DNA of 64,000 bases from Aromatoleum bremense. Lineage in GTDB: Bacteria; Pseudomonadota; Gammaproteobacteria; Burkholderiales; Rhodocyclaceae. The stretch is taken from positions 2,914,001 through 2,978,000 of the forward strand of contig NZ_CP059467.1 in the NCBI RefSeq assembly GCF_017894365.1, given 5' to 3'. The number at the start of each line of letters is the position of its first letter. Positions within the stretch are counted from its first letter, which is position 1. The notes below the pieces were generated by a model. It was given only the letters and a program-made list of their open reading frames with translations. It searched no databases and was not told where the DNA came from. Of the stretch, positions 16,837-49,085 are shown one piece after another. Both the position numbers and the translations under genes were made by a program.

Positions 16837-16984
16837 CGCTTCGGATCCTCCAGGTTGATTGGGGCCGCTGCAATGGTAGCCGATGATATGCGAGGAAAGT
16901 GCGGCGCGACTCGCGCTGCCTGCCTGCGCGCGTGTGCGGGGAGCGCGGCATGATCGCGAAAGACGGCTGTGGAGCGACCCGGCG

Positions 16985-18238
16985 ATGAGTACGGTTCTGA
17001 CCTTGCTGCTGCTGTGGATCGTCGTTTCGGCCGGCCTGCTCACGGCGATGCATGGACGGTTGCTGCGGGCCCTATGGCGCGAGCCGGTGCTGACGCGGCC
17101 GGTCGTGATTGTCGAGAGCGACGACTGGGGTCCGGGGCCTGCCGCAGACGCCGGGATCCTGCGCGCGATCGCCGCCATTCTCGATGCAATCCGCGACCGA
17201 TCCGGTCGGCCGGCGGTGATGACGCTCGGCATCGTGCTCGGTGTGCCAGACGGATCAGCGATCCTCGCCGCGAACGGGAAAATCTACGTGCGGCGCAGCC
17301 TCGCCGAAGCCGAATTCGCGCCGATCGTCGCAGCGATCCGGGACGGCTGCGTGAAAGGCGTTTTCGCATTGCAGCGGCACGGTCTGGAGCATTTCTGGCC
17401 GGCGGCGCTGCTCGCGCGCCTGGCCGGGGACGCGGCGCTACGCGAATGGCTCGCCGACCCGTCGGCACGCAGCGAAGCGCTGCCGGCGGCGCTGCAGAGC
17501 CGCTGGGTCGATTCGGCGCGCCTGCCCAGCACGCCGCTTGCGCCGCCCGTGATCGACGCCGCGGTGAGTGAGGAGGCCGCGCTTTTCGAGCGGATCTTCG
17601 GCGAGCTGCCGCAGGTCGTGGTGCCGAACACCTTCGTCTGGAACGATGCGCTCGAGCGGGCCTGGGCGGCGCACGGCGTGCGCTGCGTCGTGACGCCCGG
17701 TTGCCGCTACGAGGGGCGCGATGCGGCCGGCGCTCTCGGGCCGCCGACGCGCCGCACGCTGAATGGCGAGCGCGGTGTCGGCGGGCTGCGCTACGTGGTG
17801 CGCAACGATTATTTCGAGCCGATTCGCGGGCACCGCGCGGAGCGGGTGTGGCAGGCGATAGCGGCACGGACGGCGCAGGGTCGGCCGACGTTGCTGGAGA
17901 CGCATCGGGAGAGCTTCATCGCGCCGCCCGAGCCCGCGCGAACGGCGCTGATCGAACTCGAGCGTGCATTGCGCGGCGCGGTCGCGCGCCACCCGGACCT
18001 GTGCTTCATGCGCACGGCCGAACTCGTCGGCCACTTCGACGACGCCGCGTCGCCGCTGCGCGCGCGCGCGCTGCCGATCCGCCTGTGTGCCTGGCTGTGC
18101 CGCCTGCAGGCGGAGCCGCGATGCGCGCGACTGCTGAAGGCAACCGGCCTGGCCTGGCCGCTGCGGTCTGCCGGGTGGCTGCTCGGCACGCTGACGCGGA
18201 ACGGGGCGATGTCGCCACGACTTGCTAGACTTCATTGA
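16985..18238 (+). CDS. Putative membrane-anchored polysaccharide-deacetylase-like protein
   Basis: A 417 aa protein with one hydrophobic N-terminal anchor (residues about 3-22) followed by a domain starting VVIVESDDWG. This resembles the metal-binding first motif of NodB-like (carbohydrate deacetylase superfamily) barrels. A later PNTFVWNDALERAWAAHG segment and LLETHRESFI fit a TIM-barrel of that kind. The usual H-x3-H metal motif is not obvious, although LQRHGLEHFW might take that role. I therefore call it deacetylase-like, not a proven deacetylase. The ATG at 16985 places the anchor at the N-terminus; an upstream in-frame start at 16883 would add a Cys/Arg-rich segment and is less likely. 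It overlaps the region just upstream of the next glycosyltransferase. Confidence 0.6.
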   Translation: MSTVLTLLLLWIVVSAGLLTAMHGRLLRALWREPVLTRPVVIVESDDWGPGPAADAGILRAIAAILDAIRDRSGRPAVMTLGIVLGVPDGSAILAANGKIYVRRSLAEAEFAPIVAAIRDGCVKGVFALQRHGLEHFWPAALLARLAGDAALREWLADPSARSEALPAALQSRWVDSARLPSTPLAPPVIDAAVSEEAALFERIFGELPQVVVPNTFVWNDALERAWAAHGVRCVVTPGCRYEGRDAAGALGPPTRRTLNGERGVGGLRYVVRNDYFEPIRGHRAERVWQAIAARTAQGRPTLLETHRESFIAPPEPARTALIELERALRGAVARHPDLCFMRTAELVGHFDDAASPLRARALPIRLCAWLCRLQAEPRCARLLKATGLAWPLRSAGWLLGTLTRNGAMSPRLARLH

Positions 18239-26183: not shown

Positions 26184-29100
26184 TCATGCGACGCGCGCGC
26201 GCCGCCGCAGCACCGGATCCTTCTCCATCCACTTGCGCAGTTCCGCCCACAAGCGCGCGACCTCCATTGGGTGATCCTCGGCAAGGTCGTACGTGCATCC
26301 CGGATCCGCTTCAACATCGTAGAGCGCCAGCAGCATGCCCGACTCGAGCGGTTGATACACCAGCTTCCAGCGCCCGTCGCGCACCATGCGGTCCTTCGCG
26401 AGCAAGACGATGTCGTGGTACTCGGACTTGATCGCGAGCGTCCCGCTGGCATCGTCAGGCACGTCGAGCAGTTGCAGCAAGTCCGGGTAGCTCAGGTGCC
26501 GGGGCGGCAGGCCCGGCACCGGCGTGATCCAGATGCCGGTCTCGTTGTACGCCTTCAGTTTCAGGTCGAACGCGGGATCGAGCATCGCCGGGACGAGCGA
26601 CGAACCGTCACATTTGACCGACGGCGCCTGCAGCAGGTCGAGCAACGTCGGGACGAGGTCGATCGTGCGCACCACCTGGTCGACCCGTTGCCCGCCCGGT
26701 TGCCGCGGGTCGGCGATGACCAGTGGAATGCGCGCGCTGAAGTCGCCGAGCGCCGAGTTGCCCTGGCCCCATGTGCCGTGTTCGAAAAATTCCATGCCGT
26801 GATCGCTGTAGAGCACGACGATGGTGTTCTCGGTGAGGCCGCTGGCCTCCAGATGGCGCATCGTCCGGCCCACTTCGTCGTCGAACTGTGCGACGCAACC
26901 GTCGTAAAGATCGAGGATCTGGTCGAGATCGAATTCCTCGCGCGGTTCGCCCTGGCGGCGGATGATCTCGAACGGCTCGGTCAGCCGCGCCATGGCGAAC
27001 TTCGATTCTCCAGCGTAGGCGGGGTTCGCATGGCGGACGTAGTACGGAAATTCGGATGCGAACGGCGGATGGGTGGTCGAATAGAACAGGTTCAGCAGGA
27101 ACGGCTCGGCGGTTGCCGCGAGGCGCGAAATCATCCGCCGCCCGCGCCTTCCGAGTTGCATGGTCTGGGGTACGCCGCCGAGGTAATACAGCTCGGGGAA
27201 CAGCAGCCGGCCGATGCGGTTATGCAGGAAAAGCGAAAGAAACAGCCGGATATCCTTCGGCCCCTGACGGATCAGGTACTTCAGGTTCCACTGATCGTCC
27301 GGCAGGTCGAGGATGTCGAAGCCGAGCGAGAATTTGCCGAGATCGGCGCCGCACCAATCCGACATCGCTGCGGTGCGATAGCCGAGTGCCCCCAGGATGC
27401 TCGGCAAGGTGGGCAGGTCGAGTTTGGTTTCCTCGTTCGATACAAAGTTGTCGCGTATTCCGTGGGTATGTGGCCAAGTGCCGGTCAGCATCGAAATCAG
27501 GCTGGGTGCGGTACGGGCGCAGGGCACATAGCAGGCGCCGAAGCGGGTGCCGCGGGCGGCCAGCGCGTCGATGTTCGGCGTGAGCGACTGGCCTCCGCGG
27601 CGCGCACCGACACGATCGGCCCGCAGGGTGTCCGAGCCGATCATCAGCACGTTCGGTGTACCGTCGCGGCGCGGTTGCAGCGCGGGAGCATCGGGTTCCC
27701 GCAGCGCGAACACCAGGATTCCCAGATAGCCGGCGGTCACGCTCGCGAGGGCGGCAGCCATCGTCGACGCGCCGCGGGCCGCAAGCAGCAGGACGAGTGT
27801 ACCGCACAACAGCGCGACGGCGCTGCTTGCGACCATCGCGGCCCGGCGTAGTCCGCGTACCGACAGCAGCCCCCATAGCCGCTGGAGGTGGGCGCTGCGG
27901 TACTGCCATGACGCGACGATCAGCCCCGGATTGTGGGCGAGTGTATAGCAGACGCAGTAGCCGGTGGCGAGGGCGAGGCTGAGGGCGGCCGCCAAGGTGG
28001 CGAGGAAGGGGTTATGGTGCACTGCAAACGCGTCGGCGGCAGCCACTGTCAGCAACGAGCCGGGTAACGAGGCAAACAATCCGACAGCGAACGTCCACAA
28101 GCCGAGGCGCAGCATCGCGAACGGGACGTAGGATCGATAGCGGTGCATGATTTCGTCGCGCATGCGCGGACCGGACTGCGAGAAATCGACGATCGACTTC
28201 ACCAGCAGCGCGATCGTCAGCACGAGCGCGACGATGACTGCGGGCACGATTGCATCGCCGAAGCGTGAGCCCGCCATCCATCCCGCGAACGCGAACGCTC
28301 CGGCACCGGCGAGGCCCGCCAGTGCCACCCTGTTCTGGCCCGGCAAGCGGGACAGGCGTGCGCGTCGGCGGCGGCGCGACTCGGCTTCGTGCATTCCGCT
28401 CATCTCGCCGAGCGAGGATGCGAGCCGCACCAGGTAAAAGCGGGTTGCCTGCGCGCGCAGCACCAGCCCGCTGCGTAGCGCATAGCCGGCAACCTTCCGC
28501 CACATGTAGAGCGGCACTCCGCCTTCGGTACGGCGGAAGCGCATCACCGACTTCGAGCGTTGGAATCCCTTGCGCATCAGATACGAAAGGGTCAGGCGTT
28601 CGCCATCAACATAGTGATACTGCACGATCTGCGGGGCGTAATGCAGGATGGCACCGCCACGCATCGCGCGCCGGACCCATTCGAGATCCTCCGCACCCCC
28701 CAGATCGTGTCCAGTGGGGCCGAGTTCGGTCAGGAACGGCCCCGTCGTCTGCAACACGTCGCGCCGTGCGACGAGATTTCCTCCGCCCGGTATTCCGCCA
28801 TCGAGATCCACCCGGATCGGCGTGTCGCCCTGATCGTAACGCGGCACCGGTAGCGGGTAGATGCGGTACGGACCGTCATCGTGGACCCACGCCGGTTCGC
28901 TGCCGTCCCAATCGGGCAGGATACGGCCGCAGATCAGGTCCGCGTCGGGCCAGCTGCGCGCCGCGTCGGCCACTCCGACAAGATATCCGGCGTCGACGCG
29001 ATGGTCGTCGTCGACGAACGCCACCACCGGGTCCTTGAGCATCGGCAATGCGCGGTTGAGGGCATGCGATTTCCCGGGAGTCGGTTCGGCGATCCAGTCG

Positions 29101-29318
29101 AGCGGCAACAGTCCGGGCCCTTCGCGGCCTGCGCAGTAGCCGGCGAGAAAGTCATGCGTGCCGTCGGTGCACGCATTGGCGACGACGAACAGGCGGACGC
29201 ATGCATTTGCCGGTCGGTTCGCGGCATTGAGTGACGCGATCGCCCGGGACAGCAGCTCGACCCGATTGTAGGTGCAGATCAGCACCGAGATTTGCAGCGG
29301 ATCGGCGAACATGCTCAT
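26184..29318 (-). CDS. Glycosyltransferase family 2 - membrane region - sulfatase-like fusion
   Basis: A 1044 aa protein of three parts. Residues about 8-300 are a GT2 glycosyltransferase (SVLICTYNR, FVDDDHRVD, GGAEDLEWVRR). Residues about 328-545 hold roughly six to eight transmembrane segments. Residues about 555-1044 form an alkaline-phosphatase-superfamily sulfatase-like domain (NVLMIGSDTLRADRVG, LLNLFYSTTHPPF, YSDHGMEFFEHGTWGQG). At the sulfatase active-site motif the Cys/Ser is replaced by Thr603 (RTAPSLISMLTG) and the Arg by Leu, as in phospho- or other transferases of this superfamily rather than classical sulfatases. The ATG at 29318 overlaps the upstream stop by 4 nt. The topology predicts cytoplasmic sugar transfer and periplasmic hydrolase or transferase activity in one chain. 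Confidence 0.85.
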   Translation of the reverse strand: MSMFADPLQISVLICTYNRVELLSRAIASLNAANRPANACVRLFVVANACTDGTHDFLAGYCAGREGPGLLPLDWIAEPTPGKSHALNRALPMLKDPVVAFVDDDHRVDAGYLVGVADAARSWPDADLICGRILPDWDGSEPAWVHDDGPYRIYPLPVPRYDQGDTPIRVDLDGGIPGGGNLVARRDVLQTTGPFLTELGPTGHDLGGAEDLEWVRRAMRGGAILHYAPQIVQYHYVDGERLTLSYLMRKGFQRSKSVMRFRRTEGGVPLYMWRKVAGYALRSGLVLRAQATRFYLVRLASSLGEMSGMHEAESRRRRRARLSRLPGQNRVALAGLAGAGAFAFAGWMAGSRFGDAIVPAVIVALVLTIALLVKSIVDFSQSGPRMRDEIMHRYRSYVPFAMLRLGLWTFAVGLFASLPGSLLTVAAADAFAVHHNPFLATLAAALSLALATGYCVCYTLAHNPGLIVASWQYRSAHLQRLWGLLSVRGLRRAAMVASSAVALLCGTLVLLLAARGASTMAAALASVTAGYLGILVFALREPDAPALQPRRDGTPNVLMIGSDTLRADRVGARRGGQSLTPNIDALAARGTRFGACYVPCARTAPSLISMLTGTWPHTHGIRDNFVSNEETKLDLPTLPSILGALGYRTAAMSDWCGADLGKFSLGFDILDLPDDQWNLKYLIRQGPKDIRLFLSLFLHNRIGRLLFPELYYLGGVPQTMQLGRRGRRMISRLAATAEPFLLNLFYSTTHPPFASEFPYYVRHANPAYAGESKFAMARLTEPFEIIRRQGEPREEFDLDQILDLYDGCVAQFDDEVGRTMRHLEASGLTENTIVVLYSDHGMEFFEHGTWGQGNSALGDFSARIPLVIADPRQPGGQRVDQVVRTIDLVPTLLDLLQAPSVKCDGSSLVPAMLDPAFDLKLKAYNETGIWITPVPGLPPRHLSYPDLLQLLDVPDDASGTLAIKSEYHDIVLLAKDRMVRDGRWKLVYQPLESGMLLALYDVEADPGCTYDLAEDHPMEVARLWAELRKWMEKDPVLRRRARVA

Positions 29319-30211
29319 ATCGGCCGGTTGCGAAGCATCGCGACGAGCAGGCTCGCCATCAGGCGTCCGCGGCTCAGCGGCGCGATGCACAGTCCGGTCA
29401 GCGCGTCGCGGAGCGCCCGGCCGCGGCGCTGCGTCCGCCACGCCCATTTTGCGTAATCCGAAAGCATGCCCGCATAGGCATGGCGCCAGAACGCGCCGCG
29501 CTTGCCCGGCGGCAGCAGGTGCCGGTTCTTGCGCATCACGGTAATCGCGGCGTTGCGCATCACATCGAGGTTACCGCTCATGCTGTCGGGGCGCTTCAGG
29601 ATGACCGCGAGGGGGGCCGCGATGCAGGCATAGCCGCCGACCGCCGCGAGCCGCATCCACATGTCGATGTCTTCGAGGCTGTGCAGGCTCTCGTCGAAGC
29701 CGCCCGTCCGGTCGAGGGCGTCTCGCCGCGCGAGCACGGCCGATCCGCTACCGGCGACGAACGCATTGACGGCGAAGATCGCCTCGAGCGCGGTGTCCGT
29801 GTCGCCGCGGCAACGCCACTCGCCGAGCGCTTCCCCGTCCGGGCCCTCGATCCTTGCCGCGGTCGAGCAGAATGCCAGTTCGGGCCGCGACCGCATCAGG
29901 GCGACCTGCCGCTCCAGCTTGTCCGCCAGCCACCAGTCGTCGGCGTCGAGGAACGCAACATAGCGCCCGCGCGCGGCCCGGATGCCGGCGTTGCGCGCGC
30001 TGCTCAAGCCGCCATTCGACTTCGACAGCACATGCAGAGCGTCGCCGTAGCGGGACAGCACGGCGCCGGTGCCGTCGGTGCTGCCGTCGTCGACGACGAT
30101 CAGCTCGAAGTCGCGGAAACGCTGCGCGAAGACGCTTTCGACCGCGCGGGCGATGCACCAGGCGGCGTTGTACGCGGGGATCACGACACTGACCGTTTGG
30201 GCTTCAGTCAT
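29315..30211 (-). CDS. Glycosyltransferase family 2
   Basis: GT-A fold glycosyltransferase of 298 aa with the VSVVIPAYNAA start, the VDDGSTDGT nucleotide-binding motif, and the DXD-type motif in AFLDADDWW. It probably adds one sugar of the repeat unit at the cytoplasmic membrane face. It overlaps the sulfotransferase gene upstream by 8 nt and the GT2-sulfatase fusion downstream by 4 nt, so the three are co-translated. The sugar specificity cannot be told. Confidence 0.9.
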   Translation of the reverse strand: MTEAQTVSVVIPAYNAAWCIARAVESVFAQRFRDFELIVVDDGSTDGTGAVLSRYGDALHVLSKSNGGLSSARNAGIRAARGRYVAFLDADDWWLADKLERQVALMRSRPELAFCSTAARIEGPDGEALGEWRCRGDTDTALEAIFAVNAFVAGSGSAVLARRDALDRTGGFDESLHSLEDIDMWMRLAAVGGYACIAAPLAVILKRPDSMSGNLDVMRNAAITVMRKNRHLLPPGKRGAFWRHAYAGMLSDYAKWAWRTQRRGRALRDALTGLCIAPLSRGRLMASLLVAMLRNRPI

Positions 30212-37133: not shown

Positions 37134-38603
37134 TTATGGAACGGTGCTTGATACCAGTCGCAACTTCTGTTTCCAGCGGTGCTGCTCGGAGCCCAGTGAC
37201 GCAATGGGTAGATAGAGAAAGCAGAGCGCGTAGGTGAGGGCGCCGGTCACCATCACGACTGCGAGATAGGCCGGATTGTTGTCGCGAACCGTGCCGGGCA
37301 TGTAATGGTCGAGGACGAACAGGACGCTTGCGAGAATGGCGTTCAGCGTTGCGGCGGGGAGCATCGACACCGGCAACTGCTTCCACGTCGCGTTCAGACA
37401 CTGCGAGGCGAGTCGGTACATATGCAGGGCGTTGTAGATTGTCACGAGCACGAGTGCGCCGGCGATGCCGCGCAGTCCGTATCGCAGTCCGGCGAGGGTT
37501 GCGGCGACGGTCAGTGCGAGCACGATGAGCTGTACCACGAGTTCGCGGCCCAGCTGGTTGCGGGCCGCGAGGACGCAGCCGGACAGGTTGGCGATCGTCA
37601 GAAACGGCCCCGCGAGCGCGAGTATGGCGAGGGGGGCGGCCGCCTCGGCCCATTTCGTGCCATAGAGCAACGCAATCAGCGGCTCGGCGGTCCAGTAAAC
37701 GCCGACATAAAGGGGGGTGACGTACACGGCGACGAGGCTCAGGCTGCGGAAGAACAGATAGCGCGATTTGTCCCAGTTAGCCTGCTCTTTCGCCAATGCC
37801 CTGAAAAGGACCTGATAGACGGGGCCGGTGATCAAGCCGTGCGGCATTCGCGCGAGGCTGTCAGCCTTGTTGAACAGTCCGACCGGCGCGGCGCCCAGCG
37901 TCTTCCCGAGGATGAAATTCGTCGCCTGGTTGCGCAGATAGGTCACGATGTCGTTGATGGAAACGAGGAGGCCGTAACGTGCGACCTTCCTTCCGCGCCG
38001 GATGTCGAGGGAAAACCCCGGGCGCCATCCCGAGAGCCGGATCAGCATCGCCATGCTGCACATCGAGCCGGCCAGTCCGCCGATGATCAGGCTCCACACC
38101 CCTTGTCCCCGGTACGCCATGCCGATGCTGACCACGCTGGACACCACCAGCGTCGTGATCCTCACGGCGGTTTGCGCCTTGTAGCGCATTTCCCGATGCA
38201 GGACGCTGCCGGGCAGGTTGACGAAGGGCCGGAGGATGAAGGACAGCGCGGAGACGCGCAGCAGGTTCGCGTACAGCGGCGTGTCGTACCAACTAGCGAA
38301 CCAGGGGGCGGCGAAATAGAAAGCCGCGTAGATTGCGCAGCCGATCGCGAGCTGCAGGGTGAACACGATGTCGTAATCCTGTTTCGTCGCTTCGCTGGCG
38401 CGGACCAGTGCCTGGCCCATGCCGCCACCGGCGACGAAGCCGGCCAGACCGGTGAATACCTGGATCGTGACCAGCATGCCGAAGTCCTCGGGCGTCAGCA
38501 GCCGCGCGAGGATGATCCCGAATGCGAAGGTCAGCACCTGGCTGCCGGTGTTGCCGACGATGAGCCAGAGTGCACCGCGCCGAATGCTGTCACCGAGGGA
38601 CAT
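37134..38603 (-). CDS. Wzx-type polysaccharide flippase
   Basis: Polytopic membrane protein of 489 aa in the MOP (PST/Wzx) flippase family, expected to move undecaprenyl-linked repeat units to the periplasm. It begins MSLGDSIRRGALWLIVGNTGSQVLT, with LTPEDFGML after the first helix. It shows about 12-14 hydrophobic segments, with LRNQATNFILGK and GLFNKADSLARMP in the middle, as in WzxC-like lipopolysaccharide biosynthesis proteins. It is the only recognisable flippase in the window and could serve both polysaccharide blocks, while the ligase-like partner is encoded at 13680. A 162-nt gap separates it from the next gene downstream. Confidence 0.9.
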   Translation of the reverse strand: MSLGDSIRRGALWLIVGNTGSQVLTFAFGIILARLLTPEDFGMLVTIQVFTGLAGFVAGGGMGQALVRASEATKQDYDIVFTLQLAIGCAIYAAFYFAAPWFASWYDTPLYANLLRVSALSFILRPFVNLPGSVLHREMRYKAQTAVRITTLVVSSVVSIGMAYRGQGVWSLIIGGLAGSMCSMAMLIRLSGWRPGFSLDIRRGRKVARYGLLVSINDIVTYLRNQATNFILGKTLGAAPVGLFNKADSLARMPHGLITGPVYQVLFRALAKEQANWDKSRYLFFRSLSLVAVYVTPLYVGVYWTAEPLIALLYGTKWAEAAAPLAILALAGPFLTIANLSGCVLAARNQLGRELVVQLIVLALTVAATLAGLRYGLRGIAGALVLVTIYNALHMYRLASQCLNATWKQLPVSMLPAATLNAILASVLFVLDHYMPGTVRDNNPAYLAVVMVTGALTYALCFLYLPIASLGSEQHRWKQKLRLVSSTVP

Positions 38604-40087: not shown

Positions 40088-41332
40088 TCAGACCAGCACT
40101 TCGACCGCTGCGGGGTGGCCCAGGAACGCCTGCGGGCTCGCACTCGCGCCGTACGCGCCGGACTGGAAGATCACGACGAGGTCGCCGGGTTGTGCGACAG
40201 GCAGCGGCATGCGGTCGGCGATCAGGTCGAGGGGGGTACAGAGCGGGCCGACGACCGAGGTCGGGATGTCGGCCGAAGCGTCGCAGCGATTGCCGATCGC
40301 GACCGGATAATTCTTGCGGATCACCTGGCCGAAATTGCCGGATGCCGACAGGTGATGATGCAGCCCGCCATCGCAGACGAGGAATACGTGCCCGCGCGAG
40401 ACCTTGCGATCGACGACCCGGCATACGTAAAGGCCGGCTTCGCCGACGAGATAGCGGCCGAGTTCGATCACCAGCGCGGCGCCGGGCAGACCGGTTGCCG
40501 CGGCGGCTGCGATCTCGGCGAGGTTTGCGCCGATCGGCGCGAGATCGAGGCGCGTCTCTCCAGGGAAATACGGAATGCCGAAGCCGCCGCCAAGATTCAG
40601 CACGCGGATCGGAGCCGGGGCGGAATCGGCCAGGCGCAGCGCGAGCTCGAAGCTCTTCTGTTGCGCCTCGACGATCGCTTCGGCGCGAAGATTCTGCGAA
40701 CCGGCGAACAGATGGAAGCCCTCGAACGCGAGGCCCAGGCTGCCGATTTCCGCGAGCAGCGCCGGTACCTCTTCGGCGTCGACACCGAACGGCTTCGGTC
40801 CGCCACCCATCTTCATGCCCGAACTCTTCAGTTCGAAATCCGGATTGACACGCACGGCCACCCGCGCCGGCCAGCCGAGTCGCGCCGAGATCCCGGCGAG
40901 CGCGCGCGCCTCGCGGAAGGATTCGACGTTCAGCAGCACGCCGGCGGCAACCGCCTGGGTGAGTTCCTCGTCGCGCTTGCCGGGCCCGGCGAAGCTGATC
41001 CCGGCGGGCGCACAGCCGGCGTCGAGCGCGGTCCGCAGCTCGCCCGCCGATGCGACGTCGAGTCCGTCGACCAATCCGGCCATGTGCCCGACCAGCGCCG
41101 GCATCGGATTGGCCTTCACCGCGTAGTGCAACTGGATCGCCGCCGGCAGCGCCTGCCGCAGTTCGGTGACGCGGGCGGACAGCAGTGCGCGGTCGTAGGC
41201 ATAGAACGGGGTCTGCCCGACGCGTGCCGCGAGCCGCACGAGCGGTACGCCGCCGACCAGGATCTCCCCATCGGTCGCCGCGAACTGGGACATCGGCGCG
41301 TGCACCGGAACTGGTCTGGCAAGGGCGGTCAT
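40088..41332 (-). CDS. PLP-dependent decarboxylase, exosortase A-associated
   Basis: Alanine-racemase-fold, group IV decarboxylase related to diaminopimelate/ornithine decarboxylases, 414 aa. The PLP lysine is Lys73 in HYAVKANP. GFHLFAGSQN, GGGFGIPYFPGE, IELGRYLVGEAG and CDGGLHHHL are the other family motifs. In exosortase A loci this enzyme is typically found with an acyl-CoA ligase and an acyl carrier protein, as here. It probably makes a carrier-bound or free amine-bearing unit for the polysaccharide, but the substrate is unknown. The ATG at 41332 overlaps the ligase stop (ATGA). Confidence 0.9.
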   Translation of the reverse strand: MTALARPVPVHAPMSQFAATDGEILVGGVPLVRLAARVGQTPFYAYDRALLSARVTELRQALPAAIQLHYAVKANPMPALVGHMAGLVDGLDVASAGELRTALDAGCAPAGISFAGPGKRDEELTQAVAAGVLLNVESFREARALAGISARLGWPARVAVRVNPDFELKSSGMKMGGGPKPFGVDAEEVPALLAEIGSLGLAFEGFHLFAGSQNLRAEAIVEAQQKSFELALRLADSAPAPIRVLNLGGGFGIPYFPGETRLDLAPIGANLAEIAAAAATGLPGAALVIELGRYLVGEAGLYVCRVVDRKVSRGHVFLVCDGGLHHHLSASGNFGQVIRKNYPVAIGNRCDASADIPTSVVGPLCTPLDLIADRMPLPVAQPGDLVVIFQSGAYGASASPQAFLGHPAAVEVLV

Positions 41333-42933
41333 GCGAGGCTCTCCCGGCTACCCTCAAATTCGGCCGCGAGCAACTTTCGGTCGATCTTGCCGTTCGGGTT
41401 GCGTGGCAGCGCGCCGTCGCGCGCTTCGATCCGTGTCGGCACCATGTAGGCCGGCATGCGCCGGCGGCATTCGGCGAGCAGCGCAGCAGTGTCGAGCGTG
41501 GTGCCGGGCGCCGGTGTCGTGACGACGCATATCGTCTGGCCGAGCGTCGGGTGGGGCAGGCCGAAGGCGGTGCATTCGCCAACCATCGCCGTCGAATAAA
41601 GGATCTCCTCGACTTCGGTCGGGCTGACGCGGTAGCCAGAGGTCTTGATCATTTCGTCGCGCCGGCCGATGAAGTACAGGAAACCTTCTTCGTCACGGCG
41701 CACGGTGTCGCCGGAGAACACCGCGATTTCAGGCATCACCAGTCCGGACTCGCGACCGGCGATGCCCGCGGGTAGCGGTTTGTAGCGCTCGGCAGTCCTC
41801 TCCGGATCGTTCCAATAGCCTAGCGCGACGAGTGCGCCGCGCTGCACGAGTTCGCCGGGTTCGTTCGGTGCGCATTCGCTGCCGTCTTCCCTCAGCACGA
41901 GCACTTCGGCGTTCGGGATCGCCTTGCCGATCGAGTCGGGGCGGCGGTCGACCTCCTCGGGCGTGAGGTAGGTCGCGCGGAACGCCTCGGTCAGGCCGTA
42001 CATCAGGAAGGGGCGGGCGCGCGGCAGCTTTGCCCGCAGCGTCTTCAGCGCTTCGAGCGGCATGCGCCCACCGGTGTTCGCGATGTAGCGCAGATGCTCG
42101 CCGACCGTCTCCGGCCAGTCGAGCGCGGCAAGCTGGATCCACAACGGCGGCACCGCGGTCAGGCCGGTGACGCGTTCGCGCACCACCGCGTTCAGCACGT
42201 CGCGCGGCAGCAGGTAGTTGATCAGCACCGCGCGGGCGCCGGCATGAAAGGCGGTCGTGAGCTGCGAAAACCCCGCATCGAACGACAACGGCAACGCCGC
42301 GAGCAGGCTGTCGCCGGCGTGGTTGTCGAGGTACCGGGCGACGCTGCGCGCGCCGACGACGAGGTTGCGATGCGAGAGCACCACGCCCTTGGGGCGTCCG
42401 GTGCTGCCCGACGTGTAGAGGATCGCGGCGATATCGGTGTCGATGATGCGGTGACCGGCCCGCCTCGCGACGTCGTTCAGATCGCTCCAGCAGTGGGCGC
42501 TCGCACCGCTCAACGCGGGCAATTCCACCGGATCGTCGACGAGCACGACCTGGCGCAAGTCGTGGCAGGTGGCCAGCGCAGGCTGCAACAGTGCAAGACG
42601 TTCGGCGCTGGTCACCAGTATGCGCACGTTGCAGTCGCGTAGGATGTGGCCGACCTGCTCGGCCTTCAGCAGCGGGTTCAGCGGCACGAAGGCGCCGCCA
42701 GCAGCGGCTGTGCCGAAGGCCGCGACAACGAATTCGATGCGTTTGTCCAGATAGATGCCGACCCGTTCGGCGCGCGCAAGACCGAGCTGGACCACGCCAG
42801 CGGCGAAGGCCCGGCAGCGCTTGTCCAGGTCCGCATAGGAAAGGCTTTGCTTGCCGCCGGTGAGCGCGATGTCGTCGCCGGAACGCTCGGTCGAGGCGAA
42901 AATCAGTTCGTGAAGCAGGTCGGTGGAATTCAT
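41329..42933 (-). CDS. Acyl-CoA ligase (AMP-forming), exosortase A-associated
   Basis: Adenylate-forming ligase of 534 aa. The ATP-binding loop is YTSGSTGRPKGV, followed by MYGLTEAFRATYL, the FSGDTVRRDEEGFLYF hinge region and the C-terminal NPNGKIDRK catalytic-lysine motif. Enzymes of this subfamily occur next to the PLP decarboxylase and a carrier protein in exosortase A loci. It likely loads an acid onto the carrier protein encoded divergently at 43117. The ATG at 42933 is chosen over an upstream in-frame start because it gives the usual STDLLHELI N-terminus. Confidence 0.9.
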   Translation of the reverse strand: MNSTDLLHELIFASTERSGDDIALTGGKQSLSYADLDKRCRAFAAGVVQLGLARAERVGIYLDKRIEFVVAAFGTAAAGGAFVPLNPLLKAEQVGHILRDCNVRILVTSAERLALLQPALATCHDLRQVVLVDDPVELPALSGASAHCWSDLNDVARRAGHRIIDTDIAAILYTSGSTGRPKGVVLSHRNLVVGARSVARYLDNHAGDSLLAALPLSFDAGFSQLTTAFHAGARAVLINYLLPRDVLNAVVRERVTGLTAVPPLWIQLAALDWPETVGEHLRYIANTGGRMPLEALKTLRAKLPRARPFLMYGLTEAFRATYLTPEEVDRRPDSIGKAIPNAEVLVLREDGSECAPNEPGELVQRGALVALGYWNDPERTAERYKPLPAGIAGRESGLVMPEIAVFSGDTVRRDEEGFLYFIGRRDEMIKTSGYRVSPTEVEEILYSTAMVGECTAFGLPHPTLGQTICVVTTPAPGTTLDTAALLAECRRRMPAYMVPTRIEARDGALPRNPNGKIDRKLLAAEFEGSRESLA

Positions 42934-43102
42934 GACGCTCGGGGGGCCGATCCGCAGCAGGTCATCCGCGAAGCCGGCCGCGTATCGGCTTCGGCTCATC
43001 GCGGACCGCATCGATCGTACAGGGAACCGTGAGGCAGCAAGTATAATGCGCGTTTTCCGGTGGTGACCGATCGGTCGGAGCGCCGGCGGTCATTGGCACG
43101 CA

Positions 43103-43108
43103 AAGGAG
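43103..43108 (+). promoter_or_regulatory. Ribosome binding site selecting a TTG start
   Basis: AAGGAG lies 8 nt before a TTG at 43117. It also runs into the GTG at 43108, which is too close to use it. The site therefore supports the TTG as the start of the carrier protein, giving the usual MKI-type N-terminus. Confidence 0.6.
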
Positions 43109-43116
43109 TGCTCGCG

Positions 43117-43392
43117 TTGAAGATCCAGGAAGAAGTGGTGTCGCTGCTTGATGAGGTGTTGAGCCTGAATGGCCGCGGATTGCGGTTTGATGCCGATACG
43201 CCACTGCTCGGGAGCGTACCGGAACTCGATTCCATGGCGGTGCTCGCGGTGATCCATGCAATCGAGGAGCGCTTCGGCATCGAGGTGCCGGACGACGAGG
43301 TCGATGGAACTTCGTTCGCGACCGTTGGCACCGTGGTCGAATTCGTCACGCGTCTGTCCGGCAAATGGCGCCATCAACCGCTAGAGCCCTAG
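43117..43392 (+). CDS. Acyl carrier protein, exosortase A-associated
   Basis: A 91 aa carrier protein. The 4'-phosphopantetheine attachment serine is Ser39 in ELDSMAV, and the flanking RFDADTPLLG and FATVGTVVEFV segments match carrier proteins of exosortase A loci. It is divergent from the acyl-CoA ligase and PLP decarboxylase genes, with which it presumably works. The start is TTG at 43117 on the strength of an AAGGAG site. Its 3' end overlaps the convergent dehydrogenase gene by 12 nt. Confidence 0.85.
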   Translation: MKIQEEVVSLLDEVLSLNGRGLRFDADTPLLGSVPELDSMAVLAVIHAIEERFGIEVPDDEVDGTSFATVGTVVEFVTRLSGKWRHQPLEP

Positions 43393-44529
43393 CCACCGGC
43401 CGATGATGTTGCGCTGCATCTCGGACGTGCCCGAATAGATCGTGCTGCCCACTGCGTCACGCAGGGCGCGCTCGACCTCGTACTCGACCATATAGCCATA
43501 GCCGCCGTGCACATGGACCGTCTCGAGCGCGGTCTTCAGCAGGGATTCGCTGACCATCAGCTTCGCGATCGCGGCATCCAGCGAAGCGTTCCGGAGGTTT
43601 TCGAGACGCCAGGCTGCGCGGTAGGCGAGCAGCCGTGCGGCTTCGAGTTGAACCTTCATGTCGGCAATCTTGTGCGCTATGGCCTGAAACTTTCCGATCG
43701 CTTGCCCGAACTGATTGCGCGTGCGCGCGTAAGAAATCGAAGTCTCGAGAAGGCGCTCGATGGTTCCGACATGGCTGGCGACAAGCAGGCAGCGCTCCCA
43801 GTCCATCGCCGTGGAAAAAACGGCGGAACCGCCGCCAACCTGACCGAGCACGGCGGAAGGCGGAACGTACATGTCCGTGAACACGAGCTCTCCGACTGGC
43901 GAAGTACGCAGCCCCAGCTTCTCGAACTTCTGGCCGGCGGAAAAGCCGGGCGTATCGCTTTCGATGAGGAACGCGGTCACACCGCCGTGAAAGCCCTTGG
44001 CCGGCTCGGTGACTGCGAACACCACCGCAACGTCGGCGACAGGGCCGTTCGAAATGAAGGTCTTGCTGCCGTTGATGCGCCAGCCGTCTCGGTCGCGTTC
44101 GGCGCGCGTGCGCATCGAAAAGGAATCCGAGCCTGAGTCCGGTTCGGTGATCGCGTGGGCGCCGATCAGCGTTCCGTCGCATAGTCCCGGCAGGTAACGG
44201 CGCTTCTGTTCCTCGCTGCCGTGGCGCCACACCGGGACGACACATGCGAGCAGATGAGCGCACAGCGAAAACACCAGTCCGCCATCCCTGCAGCCGTAGC
44301 CCAGCGCCTCCAGCACCATCGCGCAGGACAGCGCATCGAGTGCGGTCCCGCCATACGCTTCGGGCACGGGCAGGCCCTGAATGCCGACCTTGGCGCATTC
44401 TTGCCACAGATCACGGGAAAAGACCTGCTCGCGATCGCGTTCGACGACGTGCGCATTGAGCGAAGCGCGGGCGAACTTGATGGTGTTCTCGCGCAGGAGC
44501 TTCTGCTCGTCCGAATAGGCGAAGTCCAT
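43381..44529 (-). CDS. Acyl-CoA-dehydrogenase-fold flavoprotein, likely aminoacyl/acyl-carrier dehydrogenase
   Basis: FAD enzyme of 382 aa. AITEPDSGSDS (126-136) and the ISNGPVADVAVV region are the flavin and substrate signature. Glu245 in MDWERCLL sits where isovaleryl-CoA-dehydrogenase-type enzymes have their catalytic base, while the late position carrying Glu in medium-chain enzymes is Ser366 (YSGTSEMQ). Prolyl-carrier dehydrogenases such as PltE/RedW share this pattern as I remember them. The gene abuts an amino-acid-adenylating ligase and a carrier protein, the same trio that makes pyrrole-2-carboxyl thioesters in natural-product clusters. Oxidation of a carrier-bound amino acid is therefore likely but unproven. 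The ATG overlaps the ligase stop by one base. Confidence 0.82.
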   Translation of the reverse strand: MDFAYSDEQKLLRENTIKFARASLNAHVVERDREQVFSRDLWQECAKVGIQGLPVPEAYGGTALDALSCAMVLEALGYGCRDGGLVFSLCAHLLACVVPVWRHGSEEQKRRYLPGLCDGTLIGAHAITEPDSGSDSFSMRTRAERDRDGWRINGSKTFISNGPVADVAVVFAVTEPAKGFHGGVTAFLIESDTPGFSAGQKFEKLGLRTSPVGELVFTDMYVPPSAVLGQVGGGSAVFSTAMDWERCLLVASHVGTIERLLETSISYARTRNQFGQAIGKFQAIAHKIADMKVQLEAARLLAYRAAWRLENLRNASLDAAIAKLMVSESLLKTALETVHVHGGYGYMVEYEVERALRDAVGSTIYSGTSEMQRNIIGRWLGL

Positions 44530-46097
44530 CAGCTCAACCCCTTCAGTTGCTGGTAGTCGGTCTTGTCGGTCGAGGTTTTCGGCAACGCTTCCAGCCACGT
44601 GAAACGGTCGGGAATCATGTACAGCGGAATCCGCGCGGCGCAGAAGCGCTTGAGCTCGATCAGCGACGCCTTGTCCGCCCCCTTGCTGCTCAGGAAAGCG
44701 GTGATCCGCACGCCCGCCTCGGCGTCGGGCACCGCAACGACGGCGACCTCCTTGACCAGTGGATGCTGATACAGCCCCGCCTCGATTTCGCCGAGTTCGA
44801 CCCGGTAGCCGCGCCGCTTGACCATCCGGTCACGCCGGCCACGGTAGATATGGTTGCCGTCGGCCGCTTCGACGACGATATCACCGGTTCGGTACCATCG
44901 GGTTCCGTCGTCATCGACGAGGAAACCTTCCGCGGTCCGTTCCGGCAACGACCAGTAGCCCTGCATCACGCCGCTGCCGGTAATGCACAGTTCTCCCTCG
45001 TCACCCGGCTTCACCGGCGCGTTGTGCTCGTCGACCACCTTGCCGCGCAGGTGCTCGCACACCTTGCCGATGGGATAGGGCGAAGTCCGCTCGTCAGGCA
45101 CCGGCGGAACAAGCTCGTAGTAGGTGCAGACGTTGGTCTCGGTCGGGCCGTAGAGGTTGAAATAGCGGGGCTTCGGCAGCTGCGAACACAGCGTCCGGAG
45201 ATGCTTGACCGGAAACACCTCGCCCGCGAACAGGACGAGGCGCAGCGCGGAGCAGTCATGGCGTGCGAGATCGCCGAATTGCGCCATCAGACTCAAGATC
45301 GACGGCGCCGAGTACCAGATGCTGATTCTTTCCTCGGCGATCAGCCTGGCCAGGTGCAGCGCATCCTTGCCTCGTTCCTCCGGGATCAGCACGAGCGTCG
45401 CGCCGTGCTTGAGCGCGACGTGGATGTCGAGGATCGAGAGGTCGAAGTGCAGCGGCGCGTGAGACGAGAAGCGGTCGTCCGGCTGCGGTTCGAACACCGC
45501 CGAACACCAGTCGACGAAACTCACCGCGTTTTCGTGCGAGAGCATCACCCCCTTCGGCTTCCCCGTCGAGCCCGACGTATAGAGGATGTAGGCTAGATCT
45601 TCCGGCTGCGACATCACGTTCTTCGCTGCCGCCGCCGGACGCTGCGCCTGCGCTTCATCCAGCAGGCGGGCGAGCGGATCGCCTCCTCCCGTCCCGTCGA
45701 GCAGCAGCAAGGGCGGCGGTTCGCCGAGTGCGAAAAATTCGGTGGAGAAGCGATCCTCGAGGCGCTTCTCCATCACGATCGCCCGCACCGCGCAGTTGTG
45801 CATGATGTAGGCGTTACGGGCGGGCGGCGCGTCGGGATCGACCGGCACGTAGGCGGCACCTGCCTTGAGGATGCCGTAGATCGCAGCGACGGCGTCGATC
45901 GACTTGCGCAGATAGATGCCGACCCGATCGCCGGCTCGCACGCCGACGGCGGCGAGCCGGTCACGCAATCGGTCGGACAAGCCGTCGAGCGCCGCATAGC
46001 TGATCGACCCGTGCTCAGGCTCGACGACTGCCGTGCGCGACGGATGGAGGGCGGCCGCGTCGCAGAGGAATTGGTGCAGCGGACGTGGGTTCGGCAT
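44529..46097 (-). CDS. Amino-acid-adenylating ligase (DltA/PltF-like)
   Basis: Stand-alone adenylation protein of 522 aa. The ATP loop is YTSGSTGKPKG (173-183). The A4 motif HFDLS (217-221) keeps Asp219, which holds the alpha-amino group in amino-acid-activating enzymes. NLYGPTETNV, YRTGDIV and the C-terminal Lys512 (TSTDKTDY) complete the core set. It should activate an amino acid and load it onto the carrier protein encoded just upstream (46104). DltA (D-Ala) and PltF (L-Pro) are the closest functional models; the choice between them cannot be made by eye. It overlaps the dehydrogenase gene by one base and lies 6 nt after the carrier gene. Confidence 0.87.
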   Translation of the reverse strand: MPNPRPLHQFLCDAAALHPSRTAVVEPEHGSISYAALDGLSDRLRDRLAAVGVRAGDRVGIYLRKSIDAVAAIYGILKAGAAYVPVDPDAPPARNAYIMHNCAVRAIVMEKRLEDRFSTEFFALGEPPPLLLLDGTGGGDPLARLLDEAQAQRPAAAAKNVMSQPEDLAYILYTSGSTGKPKGVMLSHENAVSFVDWCSAVFEPQPDDRFSSHAPLHFDLSILDIHVALKHGATLVLIPEERGKDALHLARLIAEERISIWYSAPSILSLMAQFGDLARHDCSALRLVLFAGEVFPVKHLRTLCSQLPKPRYFNLYGPTETNVCTYYELVPPVPDERTSPYPIGKVCEHLRGKVVDEHNAPVKPGDEGELCITGSGVMQGYWSLPERTAEGFLVDDDGTRWYRTGDIVVEAADGNHIYRGRRDRMVKRRGYRVELGEIEAGLYQHPLVKEVAVVAVPDAEAGVRITAFLSSKGADKASLIELKRFCAARIPLYMIPDRFTWLEALPKTSTDKTDYQQLKGLS

Positions 46098-46103
46098 GTC
46101 GCG

Positions 46104-46361
46104 CTACCTCACCTTGGATGCGAGCAGACTCGCAATGCTGCGGATCGTGTCGAGGTGCTCCTTGTCCGCCTCGTGCGCCTCGATCACGATGCCGTACTGC
46201 TCCTCGAAGTGCAGGACCAGTTTGAGCGTGGCGATCGAATCGAGGATGCCGCCGCTGATCAGCGGCAGGTCCTCTGTCAGCTCGTCCGGATTCTCGCCCG
46301 GCAGGAACTCCTCGAGGATGTAGCGTTTGACGGCCTTGCTGAAGTCAACACCTGTTTCCAT
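46104..46361 (-). CDS. Acyl/peptidyl carrier protein (DltC/PltL-like)
   Basis: An 85 aa carrier protein with Ser42 in GGILDSIATL as the phosphopantetheine site. The acidic helix and the IVIEAHEADKEHLDTIRSI end resemble carrier proteins partnered with stand-alone adenylating enzymes. It lies 6 nt before the ligase gene and 23 nt after the MBOAT-SGNH gene in one minus-strand operon. It is distinct from the XrtA-type carrier at 43117, so the region has two carrier proteins for two chemistries. Confidence 0.9.
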   Translation of the reverse strand: METGVDFSKAVKRYILEEFLPGENPDELTEDLPLISGGILDSIATLKLVLHFEEQYGIVIEAHEADKEHLDTIRSIASLLASKVR

Positions 46362-46384
46362 CGCTGCCCTCGCTATCGAGTCAA

Positions 46385-48919
46385 TCAGTGCCCCTCGGGC
46401 CGGAAAATGGCCGCGCGCTTTTCTGCCAAACCATTGAAGAGTCGTTCCGCGATCAGCTGGTGACCGGGCACGTTCGGGTGATCATCCCACTCGGCCAACC
46501 TGATCTCGTTGATGTTTCGCCCCTTGTAGACATCCTCGAGGTTGATCACGACGAAGCCCGCCGCTTCGGCGATGGCGACTGCCTCCGGCGTTTCTTCCTC
46601 CCATGCGCCTTCGCGCACCTGTGGCACGAAGATCCACACCGGCACGCTGCCGTGTTTTTGCGACTCCTCCGCGATGCGTCCGTAGACGTACGTGAGCACA
46701 TCGCGGCCGTATGGCGTCAGTCGCTTGCGCGCCTCACTCTCGTCCATGCCGGCTGTAACGCCCGCCTTGGCCGAGATATTTCGCAGACCTTCATAGGGAA
46801 TGTCGATCGCCTTATGGCTGACTTCCGCGAGGTAGGCGACCGCGCGTGTGATTTCGCGTCCGGTCGCGACAAAAAAGATCGCATGCGGCGCGAAGGCAAA
46901 GGCCTTTTCCGTGATCACCAATTGTTGCGGCGGGCAATATCCCGGCACCCCCATATTGAGCAGCTCATACTTGTCGAACGCTTCGTCGGCCCATTCCCGG
47001 TTCAACCTGTTCTCCACCAGTGCCTCGAACGTCTGGCCGTCGCCCACCCCCCAGCCCATGACGGAGGAGGCGCCCAACACGGCCGCACGAAAGGTGCGGG
47101 GAGCAGGTTGTGCTTCGTAATCCCGATCGCGCATGCCGTATGCGTTGGTGGTGATCGTGCCGTGCTTGGTGGTCCGGACGAAGGACGGAATCAGTTCAGT
47201 CTGCGCGAATCCGCCGACGAAGCGCTTGAGGTTGGTGGTCTCGACATCCAGCCAGTTCTTCGGCTTGTTCATGTATACCTCCCACAGCTGGGAGTTGAAG
47301 CGGTCGACCGACAGGAGGTTCTCGTAGTAGCCCCGCTCCAGTTTCGCGGTATCGAGTCGGCTGAGCTGTCCGGAGCGCACCGAATGCACGAAGGTGCCGA
47401 AATCCATGCCGATCTGCGAGTGCAGCCCTTCCACGCTGACTGCAATGAGCGCGCACAGGGACGCTACGGTAACCAGCCTGCTCCTCATCCAGGAGCGATC
47501 ATCCTGGGCCGAGGCCCGCACGTTTCGCACCGACTCGCGCGGAATGGAACCGACCACGATGACCGCAAGCACGATGGACGGATACAGCAGCAGTTCGGCG
47601 GTATATTCCCCACCGAGCGCCGACCACAGCGAGAACCACGCGTCGAGCGACTCGGTGGTCCAGAATGACCACAGCACGCAGATGAACCAGAACGTCGCAT
47701 AGGTCCTGAGCACCAGCACCGCGGTCGTGCGCCACGTGCGCACCGGCGTGCCGAGGCTGCGCGGACGGCCGTGCTTCATCTCGTACAGCGAATTCGCGAC
47801 CACCAGCACGCCGAGGATGCCCCAGAACAGCATGTCCTGCGGGACGAGAAGCAGCGAACCGCGCAGCCAGAACCACTGGTAGGCATGCAGGAACCACGTC
47901 ATCAGAAAGACGTACAACGTCGCGACGACGAGCGCCTTCTCGGTACCCAGCTTACGCAGCTTGAACACCGCCGGGTAATAGAAGACCTTCTGCATGAACT
48001 CCTTCCAGTAGATGTTGATGCGCCGCCAGAAGTCCGTGAAGCTCGAAGCCAACAGGTAGCGGTTGTGCGTCTCGGGCAGGCGGAAGCCGAACAGGTAGAG
48101 CATGCCGATGATCAGGTGGAACAGGCCGGATACCCGCAGGTACAGCAGGAAGTTGGCCACCAGGTACTGGATCAGCTCGGCCGGGTTGCCGACCTCATGC
48201 GGGGCGAGCGTCAGGTAGTAGTAGACGATGCGGTACAGGATCAGATGGATCACCCCGCGCACCATCCAGTCGATGCCGACCTGGTAGATGCGGTAGGCGT
48301 CGTCATCGAAGTAGTTGCGGCGGAAGGTCTTGTAGTCGATCACCGGGAAAAGCGGAAAGCACGCGTTCGGCAGCATGAAGAAGTACGCGAGCGACTGCGC
48401 CGGGGTGGTCGGCGTCTTGTCATGGCGCAGATCGTAGAAATAGACGATCAGGCGGAACATGAACATCGCGCCGAGAATCGGCCAGATCGCGTCCGACCAC
48501 GGGAACGGCAGGTGGCCGGCGCGCTGCAGCGCGAGAACGCCTGCGACGCCGAGCAGCAATGCTCCCCGCGACGCGAATGAGATGGGCAGATGGCAGATGC
48601 CGACCAACACGAGCCCGATCGCGACGAGCCACGCCGCATTCACGCCCCCCATGACGACGCCGATGCCTGCCAGGCTGAGCGCCACGAAGAAAGGCAAGCG
48701 CATGCGCAAGGGCAGCCAGGCGTGGATCGCGAAACCGGCGAAGGCGAGCATCGCGAGCCGCAGGAACGCGGCCGATTCGATCTGGAACTGGCGCAGCAGC
48801 AACAGCAGAAGGGCTAACTGGGCGATGACGCCCAGATAGTTGACCAAACCGATCTGGCCCTTTTGCGCATCACTTTCAAGGGGACCGGACGCCCTGCCAA
48901 CAACCGCCGTCAAGCTCAT
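46385..48919 (-). CDS. MBOAT-type O-acyltransferase fused to an SGNH-like domain (DltB/DltD-like)
   Basis: An 844 aa protein. Residues about 15-460 hold ten or more transmembrane segments, with an MBOAT-like core: SSFTDFWRRINIYWKEF, then WFLHAYQWF with the probable catalytic His345. From about 490 there is a large extracytoplasmic domain of SGNH-hydrolase type. Its first block reads GASSVMGWG (the usual GDS has become GAS, with Ser618 kept), and its last is DDHPNVPGH with Asp812/His814. DltB and DltD are the analogous separate proteins in teichoic-acid D-alanylation. It should take an acyl group from the carrier protein and place it on a periplasmic glycan. The ATG at 48919 has GGAG 7 nt upstream; a GTG at 48931 is an alternative. 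Confidence 0.85.
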   Translation of the reverse strand: MSLTAVVGRASGPLESDAQKGQIGLVNYLGVIAQLALLLLLLRQFQIESAAFLRLAMLAFAGFAIHAWLPLRMRLPFFVALSLAGIGVVMGGVNAAWLVAIGLVLVGICHLPISFASRGALLLGVAGVLALQRAGHLPFPWSDAIWPILGAMFMFRLIVYFYDLRHDKTPTTPAQSLAYFFMLPNACFPLFPVIDYKTFRRNYFDDDAYRIYQVGIDWMVRGVIHLILYRIVYYYLTLAPHEVGNPAELIQYLVANFLLYLRVSGLFHLIIGMLYLFGFRLPETHNRYLLASSFTDFWRRINIYWKEFMQKVFYYPAVFKLRKLGTEKALVVATLYVFLMTWFLHAYQWFWLRGSLLLVPQDMLFWGILGVLVVANSLYEMKHGRPRSLGTPVRTWRTTAVLVLRTYATFWFICVLWSFWTTESLDAWFSLWSALGGEYTAELLLYPSIVLAVIVVGSIPRESVRNVRASAQDDRSWMRSRLVTVASLCALIAVSVEGLHSQIGMDFGTFVHSVRSGQLSRLDTAKLERGYYENLLSVDRFNSQLWEVYMNKPKNWLDVETTNLKRFVGGFAQTELIPSFVRTTKHGTITTNAYGMRDRDYEAQPAPRTFRAAVLGASSVMGWGVGDGQTFEALVENRLNREWADEAFDKYELLNMGVPGYCPPQQLVITEKAFAFAPHAIFFVATGREITRAVAYLAEVSHKAIDIPYEGLRNISAKAGVTAGMDESEARKRLTPYGRDVLTYVYGRIAEESQKHGSVPVWIFVPQVREGAWEEETPEAVAIAEAAGFVVINLEDVYKGRNINEIRLAEWDDHPNVPGHQLIAERLFNGLAEKRAAIFRPEGH

Positions 48920-49085
48920 CAGCGTCTCCACTTCGAGTCATCGGCTATCCAACGGCGCGACCATCGTGTTCCAGACTACGGCGTGTCGGACAGGCTCATT
49001 TTGTTCATGTCATTCTAGGAACAGCCGTTTGAATTACTCAAGGGGCTTTATCGTGAGATGCATTTTCGTTACATTTGAGCGCTCT

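Follow-up and report, generated by a model that had tools for sequence, protein, structure and literature searches.

A predicted Dlt-like cassette for pyrrole-2-carboxyl decoration of a surface glycan in Aromatoleum bremense

The window analysed here is a stretch of 64,000 nucleotides of Aromatoleum bremense (G000:C1:2914001-2978000), part of one contig of a 4.38 Mb genome. On its minus strand, positions 43381-48919 carry a tight four-gene operon encoding an MBOAT-SGNH fusion, a carrier protein, an amino-acid ligase and a flavin dehydrogenase. From fusion to dehydrogenase, the junctions are about 20 bases, then 6 bases, then an overlapping TGATG. An original prediction, made from the letters of the sequence, had named four adjacent minus-strand genes of these kinds, and they are confirmed here. 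We propose, with a probability of roughly 0.55, that they encode a Dlt-like system which esterifies an extracytoplasmic glycan with pyrrole-2-carboxyl groups. The cassette is best read as a junction of two known kinds of system, Dlt-like transfer and thiotemplated pyrrole chemistry. Sequence or structural models support the kinds of the four proteins, the pocket for proline, the dehydrogenase clade with its catalytic base, the folds and the co-inheritance of the genes; the parts and their joint inheritance are solid.

In the proposed mechanism, the ligase would activate L-proline with adenosine triphosphate and load it onto the phosphopantetheine of the carrier, and the flavoprotein, with Glu245 as base, would oxidize the carrier-bound prolyl thioester by four electrons to the pyrrole-2-carboxyl thioester. 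At the inner face of the membrane, the carrier would hand the pyrrolyl group to the MBOAT half of the fusion, which would move it across as DltB is proposed to do with DltC. Outside, the fused SGNH half would esterify a hydroxyl of an extracytoplasmic glycan with the group; the likeliest target in this strain is the exopolysaccharide of exosortase-A type whose genes lie alongside. Pyrrole is the likely carrier-bound product; we infer the electron count (four rather than two), the direction of transfer, the glycan acceptor and the ester bond.

Ligase, carrier and dehydrogenase

The stand-alone adenylating ligase (44529-46097, minus strand, 522 residues; TIGR01733 390.2 bits, cut-off 317.4) is a predicted L-proline--carrier ligase. 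Its pocket, whose lining positions we take to be D219, L220, L223, Y262, L289, A291, L315, V323, C324 and K512, is identical at nine of the nine positions in the aligned segment to that of 6o6e, named L-proline--[L-prolyl-carrier protein] ligase, at six of nine to that of 7thn, which bears the same name, and at three of nine to that of DltA (3e7w), as tallied by eye from the alignment. The match to 6o6e strongly supports the prediction of L-proline as substrate, which fills in the amino acid that the original prediction had left open. No published source for the pocket code was found in the literature search, so the code rests on the 6o6e alignment. Over the whole ligase 6o6e scored 362 bits and the best D-alanine ligase listed 219; only multi-module gramicidin synthase chains, whose scores add up three stretches, outscored 6o6e. 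A fatty or aryl acid ligase, which would have spoken against the original prediction, is ruled out by the retained amino-group Asp and the prolyl-ligase pocket.

The phosphopantetheine carrier protein (46104-46361, minus strand, 85 residues) bears the attachment motif LDSI and matches the PP-binding family PF00550 at 22.3 bits (cut-off 20.8). A true Dlt operon is ruled out by the scores of ligase and carrier, which lie below the Dlt model cut-offs: 273.6 bits against 559.85 for the DltA model TIGR01734, and 31.7 against 68 and 26.8 against 52.35 for the DltC models NF003464 and TIGR01688, respectively. With NF052616 the carrier scored 119.7 bits, below the cut-off of 130. An ornithine-lipid route, which the best NCBIfam name of the carrier (OlsHI) would imply, was dropped: the OlsHI paper (PMC12493201) reports a GH3-like enzyme together with an alpha/beta hydrolase, and the cassette family matches suggest neither enzyme type.

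The flavin dehydrogenase (43381-44529, minus strand, 382 residues) is a predicted prolyl-carrier oxidase on the strength of PDB ranking and trees. Among solved chains the highest scores were those of 4irn, a prolyl-ACP (acyl carrier protein) dehydrogenase (406 bits), 5zw0 (337), 6af6 (334) and 6cxt (310), and the first coenzyme A (CoA) enzyme was a butyryl-CoA dehydrogenase (283 bits). We take 4irn to be AnaB and 5zw0 to be PigA. The third of these oxidases, 6CXT, is Bmp3 (PMC10849742). Identity amounts to 46% to 4irn, 43% to 5zw0 and 40% to both 6cxt and butyryl-CoA dehydrogenase, so that identity alone would not separate the oxidase from the CoA types. The NCBIfam ranking begins with PigA (444.6 bits) and RedW (429.4), followed by acryloyl-CoA reductase (316.4); the equivalog cut-offs of the first two models (NF053553, 500; NF045652, 650) are missed.

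In a tree of 92 rows, 85 rows including AnaB, PigA and Bmp3 form a prolyl-carrier clade with 100/100 support that leaves out butyryl-CoA dehydrogenase and the six own-genome paralogs present in the tree. Within it lies a cassette clade of the window and 43 named loci (100/99). Seven of the 15 other own-genome matches had been supplied as paralogs, and two short rows, L080 and L007 (an own-genome paralog), had been removed beforehand. The tree carried a warning of long branches for PigA, Bmp3, L113 and several CoA enzymes. A quick second tree, made without five long or divergent rows, retained the prolyl-carrier clade (82 rows; SH-aLRT, the Shimodaira-Hasegawa-like approximate likelihood-ratio test, 100) and the cassette clade (44 rows, support 93), again with a long-branch warning. 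The next best dehydrogenase paralog of the own genome scored 245 bits against 910. A CoA-type dehydrogenase is thus ruled out by the trees and by the PDB and NCBIfam rankings; the original prediction would have fallen with such a placement, and both trees give the opposite.

The residues picked out earlier, Asp219 of the ligase and Glu245 and Ser366 of the dehydrogenase, all read as stated. Glu245, within MDWER, has a Glu as its counterpart in 4irn, 5zw0 and 6cxt, and Ser366 occupies the other candidate position; 6af6 is the 5zw0 protein carrying Ala at the site equivalent to Glu245. Glu at this position is termed essential in AnaB and Bmp3 (PMC10849742). The 80 named loci of the survey described below were found via two peptide patterns taken from cassette dehydrogenases, so that part of the conservation seen around Ser366 follows from the selection itself. 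At one locus, L048 (2568-4416), electron-transfer flavoprotein genes directly adjoin the cassette-clade dehydrogenase, which suggests that some members of the clade hand electrons to an electron-transfer flavoprotein instead of oxygen.

Co-inheritance and distribution of the four genes

Named genomes were scanned with 15 aligned cassette dehydrogenases, and 80 of 105 confirmed loci were kept. The cassette type accounts for 44 of the 80 (L080 being assigned to it by identity, 63-65%), six of which are cut by a contig end (L022, L024, L034, L044, L045, L051). All four genes are adjacent in 31 of the 38 uncut loci, 30 by the set thresholds plus L080, where the ligase match is broken up; 23 of these 30 remain at less than 95% dehydrogenase identity. 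The full set is missing from L027, L030, L035, L037, L046, L049 and L048, where the contig ends after 1.3 kb. At L052 and L123 (G665) all four genes are retained but laid out differently. The ligase is present in 39 of the 44 cassette-type loci, 28 times with the exact ten-letter code and ten times one position off it, and the remaining one, readable at nine positions only, is identical to the code at all nine. The MBOAT half was found in none of the 36 non-cassette loci (100 bits, within 8 kb, some contigs being short).

Full sets, many of which come from metagenome bins, occur in Beta- and Gammaproteobacteria, Mesorhizobium, Acidobacteriota, Myxococcota, Gemmatimonadota, Rhodothermota and Hydrogenedentota. 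In a sample of the order, the dehydrogenase (at least 74%) was detected in 6 of 399 genomes and the fusion (E 1e-40) in five, all among those six; the dehydrogenase of the sixth, G161, lies on a contig of only 3078 bases. In a sample of the phylum, the fusion (E 1e-20) and the dehydrogenase (E 1e-100) were each found in 2 of 339 genomes, the same two. Three of 17 genomes of the own genus carry the dehydrogenase, hence a patchy distribution, and plasmid records yielded relatives only below 60% identity (32 records). The four genes are thus inherited together, the reverse of what the original prediction had named as evidence against itself; as each such result was sought, and clade, pocket and co-inheritance all came out the opposite way, its overall interpretation is supported.

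An otherwise complete cassette, L115 (G034), has its ligase gene interrupted by about 1.5 kb (around 7587-9121). A second family was also seen, in which the ligase that follows a related dehydrogenase differs in its pocket (DMFK or DMFN, e.g. DMFKLGVLCK) and in which the MBOAT fusion was not found. It comprises L059, L065, L066, L071, L074, L078, L081, L082, L084, L085 and L089, and occurs in Geomonas, Desulfuromonadales, Anaerolineales and others.

Transferase, acceptor and carrier-bound product

The MBOAT-SGNH fusion (46385-48919, minus strand) has 844 residues from ATG, or 848 from an upstream GTG at 48931. Structural modelling gives its MBOAT half a DltB/PORCN-like MBOAT fold, so that it qualifies as a DltB-type MBOAT, and the conserved His with a preceding His/Asn/Asp that marks the MBOAT superfamily is present. 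N306 and H349 (848-residue numbering, four lower in the 844-residue form, as for the SGNH residues below) are invariant among 42 sequences and presumably equivalent to DltB and PORCN residues. The SGNH half is likewise predicted to adopt the SGNH fold, with the Ser/Asp/His motifs present (S622, D816, H818). The fusion family is large, with 3428 relatives at E 0.001; its MBOAT half is unrecognised by Pfam, so that a new Pfam model would be justified.

Our best guess for the acceptor is a polysaccharide or other glycan. The cassette of the window abuts an exosortase A (XrtA) exopolysaccharide region. At L020 it lies among genes for a glycosyltransferase, a sugar-transfer ATP-grasp protein, a deacetylase and a pyruvyl transferase, with XrtA about 15 kb away, apparently in the same genome. 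In Mesorhizobium (L039) it stands among two glycosyltransferases, a pyruvyl transferase and a bacterial sugar transferase, and at L033 it adjoins UDP-GlcNAc 2-epimerase, asnB-type and glycosyltransferase genes. Glycosyltransferase matches lie near L080, an XrtA-type ligase and carrier lie near L032, and L035, which is without the MBOAT fusion, sits inside a glycan locus. Of 27 distinct cassette genomes, 21 have exosortase A above the cut-off (30 genome entries searched, with 23 of the 31 full-cassette loci covered, 24 above the cut-off, three pairs with identical coordinates counted once). In the order sample it was present in all six cassette genomes, compared with 98 of the 399 genomes as a whole (hypergeometric 2e-4, kinship ignored). 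This enrichment and the glycan loci of several lineages favour a polysaccharide acceptor. By the same counts the cassette is not a standard part of the exosortase A system, the cassette-type dehydrogenase occurring in only six of the 399 genomes.

Several observations weigh against a glycan acceptor. Among the one or two neighbours scanned at each of L016, L019, L038, L028 and L053 there was no glycan gene, and these loci showed no match to the exopolysaccharide proteins of the window; throughout the survey of single neighbours, loci and open reading frames were picked by hand. None of those proteins was found within 10 kb of L013, and G034 has its XrtA about 2.1 Mb from the cassette. Applied to 23 loci, a home-made GC-position (guanine-cytosine) script yielded 135 flanking open reading frames from 22 of them, L052 giving none; 108 were searched for families, and only six of these 108 match PF13692, the commonest glycosyltransferase family. 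With so many copies lacking adjoining glycan genes, the ester linkage to an exopolysaccharide is put forward tentatively; a modifier of surface glycans could also be encoded away from glycan genes.

The pyrrolyl group might instead go to a lipid, to a peptidoglycan or protein hydroxyl, or to an exported small molecule, the exopolysaccharide proximity being incidental. This is rather unlikely, though the cassettes without glycan genes in the inspected neighbourhood and the patchy distribution in the own genus would fit it, as would the top fold match of the SGNH half, CgnD of crocagin biosynthesis. The glycan loci and the XrtA enrichment argue for the glycan, as do the many carbohydrate esterases and PatB in the same list of fold matches.

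The carrier-bound product of the cassette family is most likely an aromatic pyrrole, to judge from halogenase genes at other loci. In an acidobacterial bin (L017), a full cassette is preceded on its own strand by a gene for a PltA/Mpy16-type flavin halogenase, from which a sodium/proton exchanger gene separates it. The halogenase matches 5buk, presumably Mpy16 (523 bits, 239 of 431 residues identical), PltA 5dbj (517) and ChlB4 7fco (507), the next chain scoring 116. It lacks 12 residues present in 5buk and PltA, so that damage to this copy or a misassembly is possible. According to a title in the reference list of PMC10849742, a pyrrolyl-S-carrier protein is dichlorinated by PltA, and the linkage of such a halogenase to a cassette argues for an aromatic pyrrole-2-carboxyl product. 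At L037, a Chloroflexi bin that branches off first within the cassette clade (weakly supported, 84/79), two flavin-halogenase-like genes with WxWxIP (11067-12449 and 15816-17027) take the place of the MBOAT fusion; carrier, proline-code ligase and cassette-type dehydrogenase are retained, and the locus perhaps makes a halopyrrole natural product or reflects a state preceding recruitment of the transferase. The full cassette L047 has a halogenase-like gene without WxWxIP. In this strain the pyrrole would be plain as far as seen: a halogenated product was set aside, as no PltA-type halogenase was found in the own genome, by a search that had no positive control and whose empty answer therefore shows nothing.

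It is improbable that the flavoprotein stops, like AnaB, at a pyrroline-carboxyl thioester after two electrons and that this group is transferred. In its favour, 4irn is the closest solved relative, and the AnaB product is described as (S)-pyrroline-5-carboxyl-AnaD (PMC3252866); closeness to AnaB consequently does not decide between two and four electrons. AnaB stands outside the cassette clade in the tree, RedW, PltE and Bmp3 carry out the four-electron oxidation to pyrrole (PMC10849742), and the halogenase linked to L017 and the WxWxIP genes beside the L037 cassette-type genes also speak for the pyrrole. That an acyl-CoA dehydrogenase of the CoA type and a ligase for fatty or aryl acids lie by chance beside an O-acetylation MBOAT, as the general family names would allow (Pfam ACAD, AMP-binding), is highly implausible, being contradicted by clade, pocket and co-inheritance and by the rearranged loci L052 and L123 that keep all four genes.

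Known systems and neighbouring genes

The cassette shares with the pyrrole trio (PltF/PltL/PltE, RedM/RedO/RedW, PigI/PigG/PigA, Bmp4/Bmp1/Bmp3, CloN4/CloN5/CloN3) a proline-pocket ligase, a stand-alone carrier, an ACAD-like oxidase with an essential Glu and the same predicted carrier-bound product. The trio feeds soluble antibiotics and pigments, whereas the cassette joins it to a membrane MBOAT-SGNH transferase in one operon. With DltABCD, which D-alanylates teichoic acids, it has in common an amino-acid ligase, a carrier, a DltB-fold MBOAT and an SGNH-type extracytoplasmic partner. Unlike DltABCD, it has a pocket that is not D-alanine-like, an extra oxidase and fused DltB-like and DltD-like parts, and it was found mostly in Gram-negative phyla. 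AlmEFG, which places glycine on lipid A, also decorates a surface glycolipid with an amino-acid ligase, a carrier and a membrane transferase, but it uses glycine, has no oxidase and has a transferase of another family. The O-acetylation systems AlgI/AlgJ/AlgX and PatA/PatB follow the same MBOAT and SGNH logic of O-acylation outside the membrane, with an acetyl donor, separate proteins and no carrier or ligase. The nearest chemical precedent is clorobiocin, where pyrrole-2-carboxyl is placed on a sugar hydroxyl by way of CloN4/N5/N3 with CloN2 and CloN7: CloN4, CloN5 and CloN3 convert proline to pyrrole-2-carboxyl, which then goes onto the sugar 3'-OH (PMC11218499). The transferases differ there, the acceptor is a small molecule and further methylation occurs.

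No pyrrole-decorated polysaccharide or cassette of this kind was recognised, judging by titles and the opening lines of abstracts, in a literature search whose coverage mostly excluded subscription papers, in keeping with the original prediction, which knew of no described polysaccharide decoration of this sort. To our knowledge, the products of thiotemplated pyrrole chemistry have so far been antibiotics, pigments and further small molecules. We see about even odds that the surface polysaccharides of bacteria from several phyla bear pyrrole esters, aromatic and in some lineages also halogenated, made by an antibiotic-type line rewired to a Dlt-like transferase and giving an ultraviolet-absorbing, redox-active, possibly cross-linkable glycan coat. 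If so, the surface polymers of bacteria would bear a chemical modification of a new kind, and thiotemplated pyrrole chemistry would have gained a new role. Environmental bacteria such as Aromatoleum, Pseudothauera, Accumulibacter and Mesorhizobium would then be expected to carry on their surface glycans a specific and easily detected group, pyrrole-2-carboxylate freed by mild alkali, with the cassette as genomic marker. An MBOAT fusion that Pfam does not recognise would also be linked to a carrier-bound donor, and the cassette would offer a natural test case for the uptake of acyl groups from carriers by MBOAT proteins.

Beside the cassette, a second carrier protein (43060-43392, plus strand; PP-binding 29.8 bits) lies between it and an exosortase-A-type ligase, so that two carrier systems stand side by side; this carrier is probably outside the cassette and context only. 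The exosortase-A-associated ligase (TIGR03098, 795.6 bits) and a pyridoxal-phosphate decarboxylase (TIGR03099, 636.8 bits), each above its cut-off, occupy 40088-43011 on the minus strand. The exosortase A exopolysaccharide region with its glycosyltransferases spans 2990-38603, with XrtA at 8628-10223 and a MOP/Wzx-type flippase at 37134-38603 (matches below cut-off). Within it, an open reading frame of 1087 residues (26184-29447) combines an N-terminal glycosyltransferase-like and a C-terminal sulfatase-like part (NCBIfam, below cut-off), and a single one of 828 residues (2990-5476) carries two exosortase-A-system glycosyltransferases, TIGR03087 and TIGR03088, both above cut-off.

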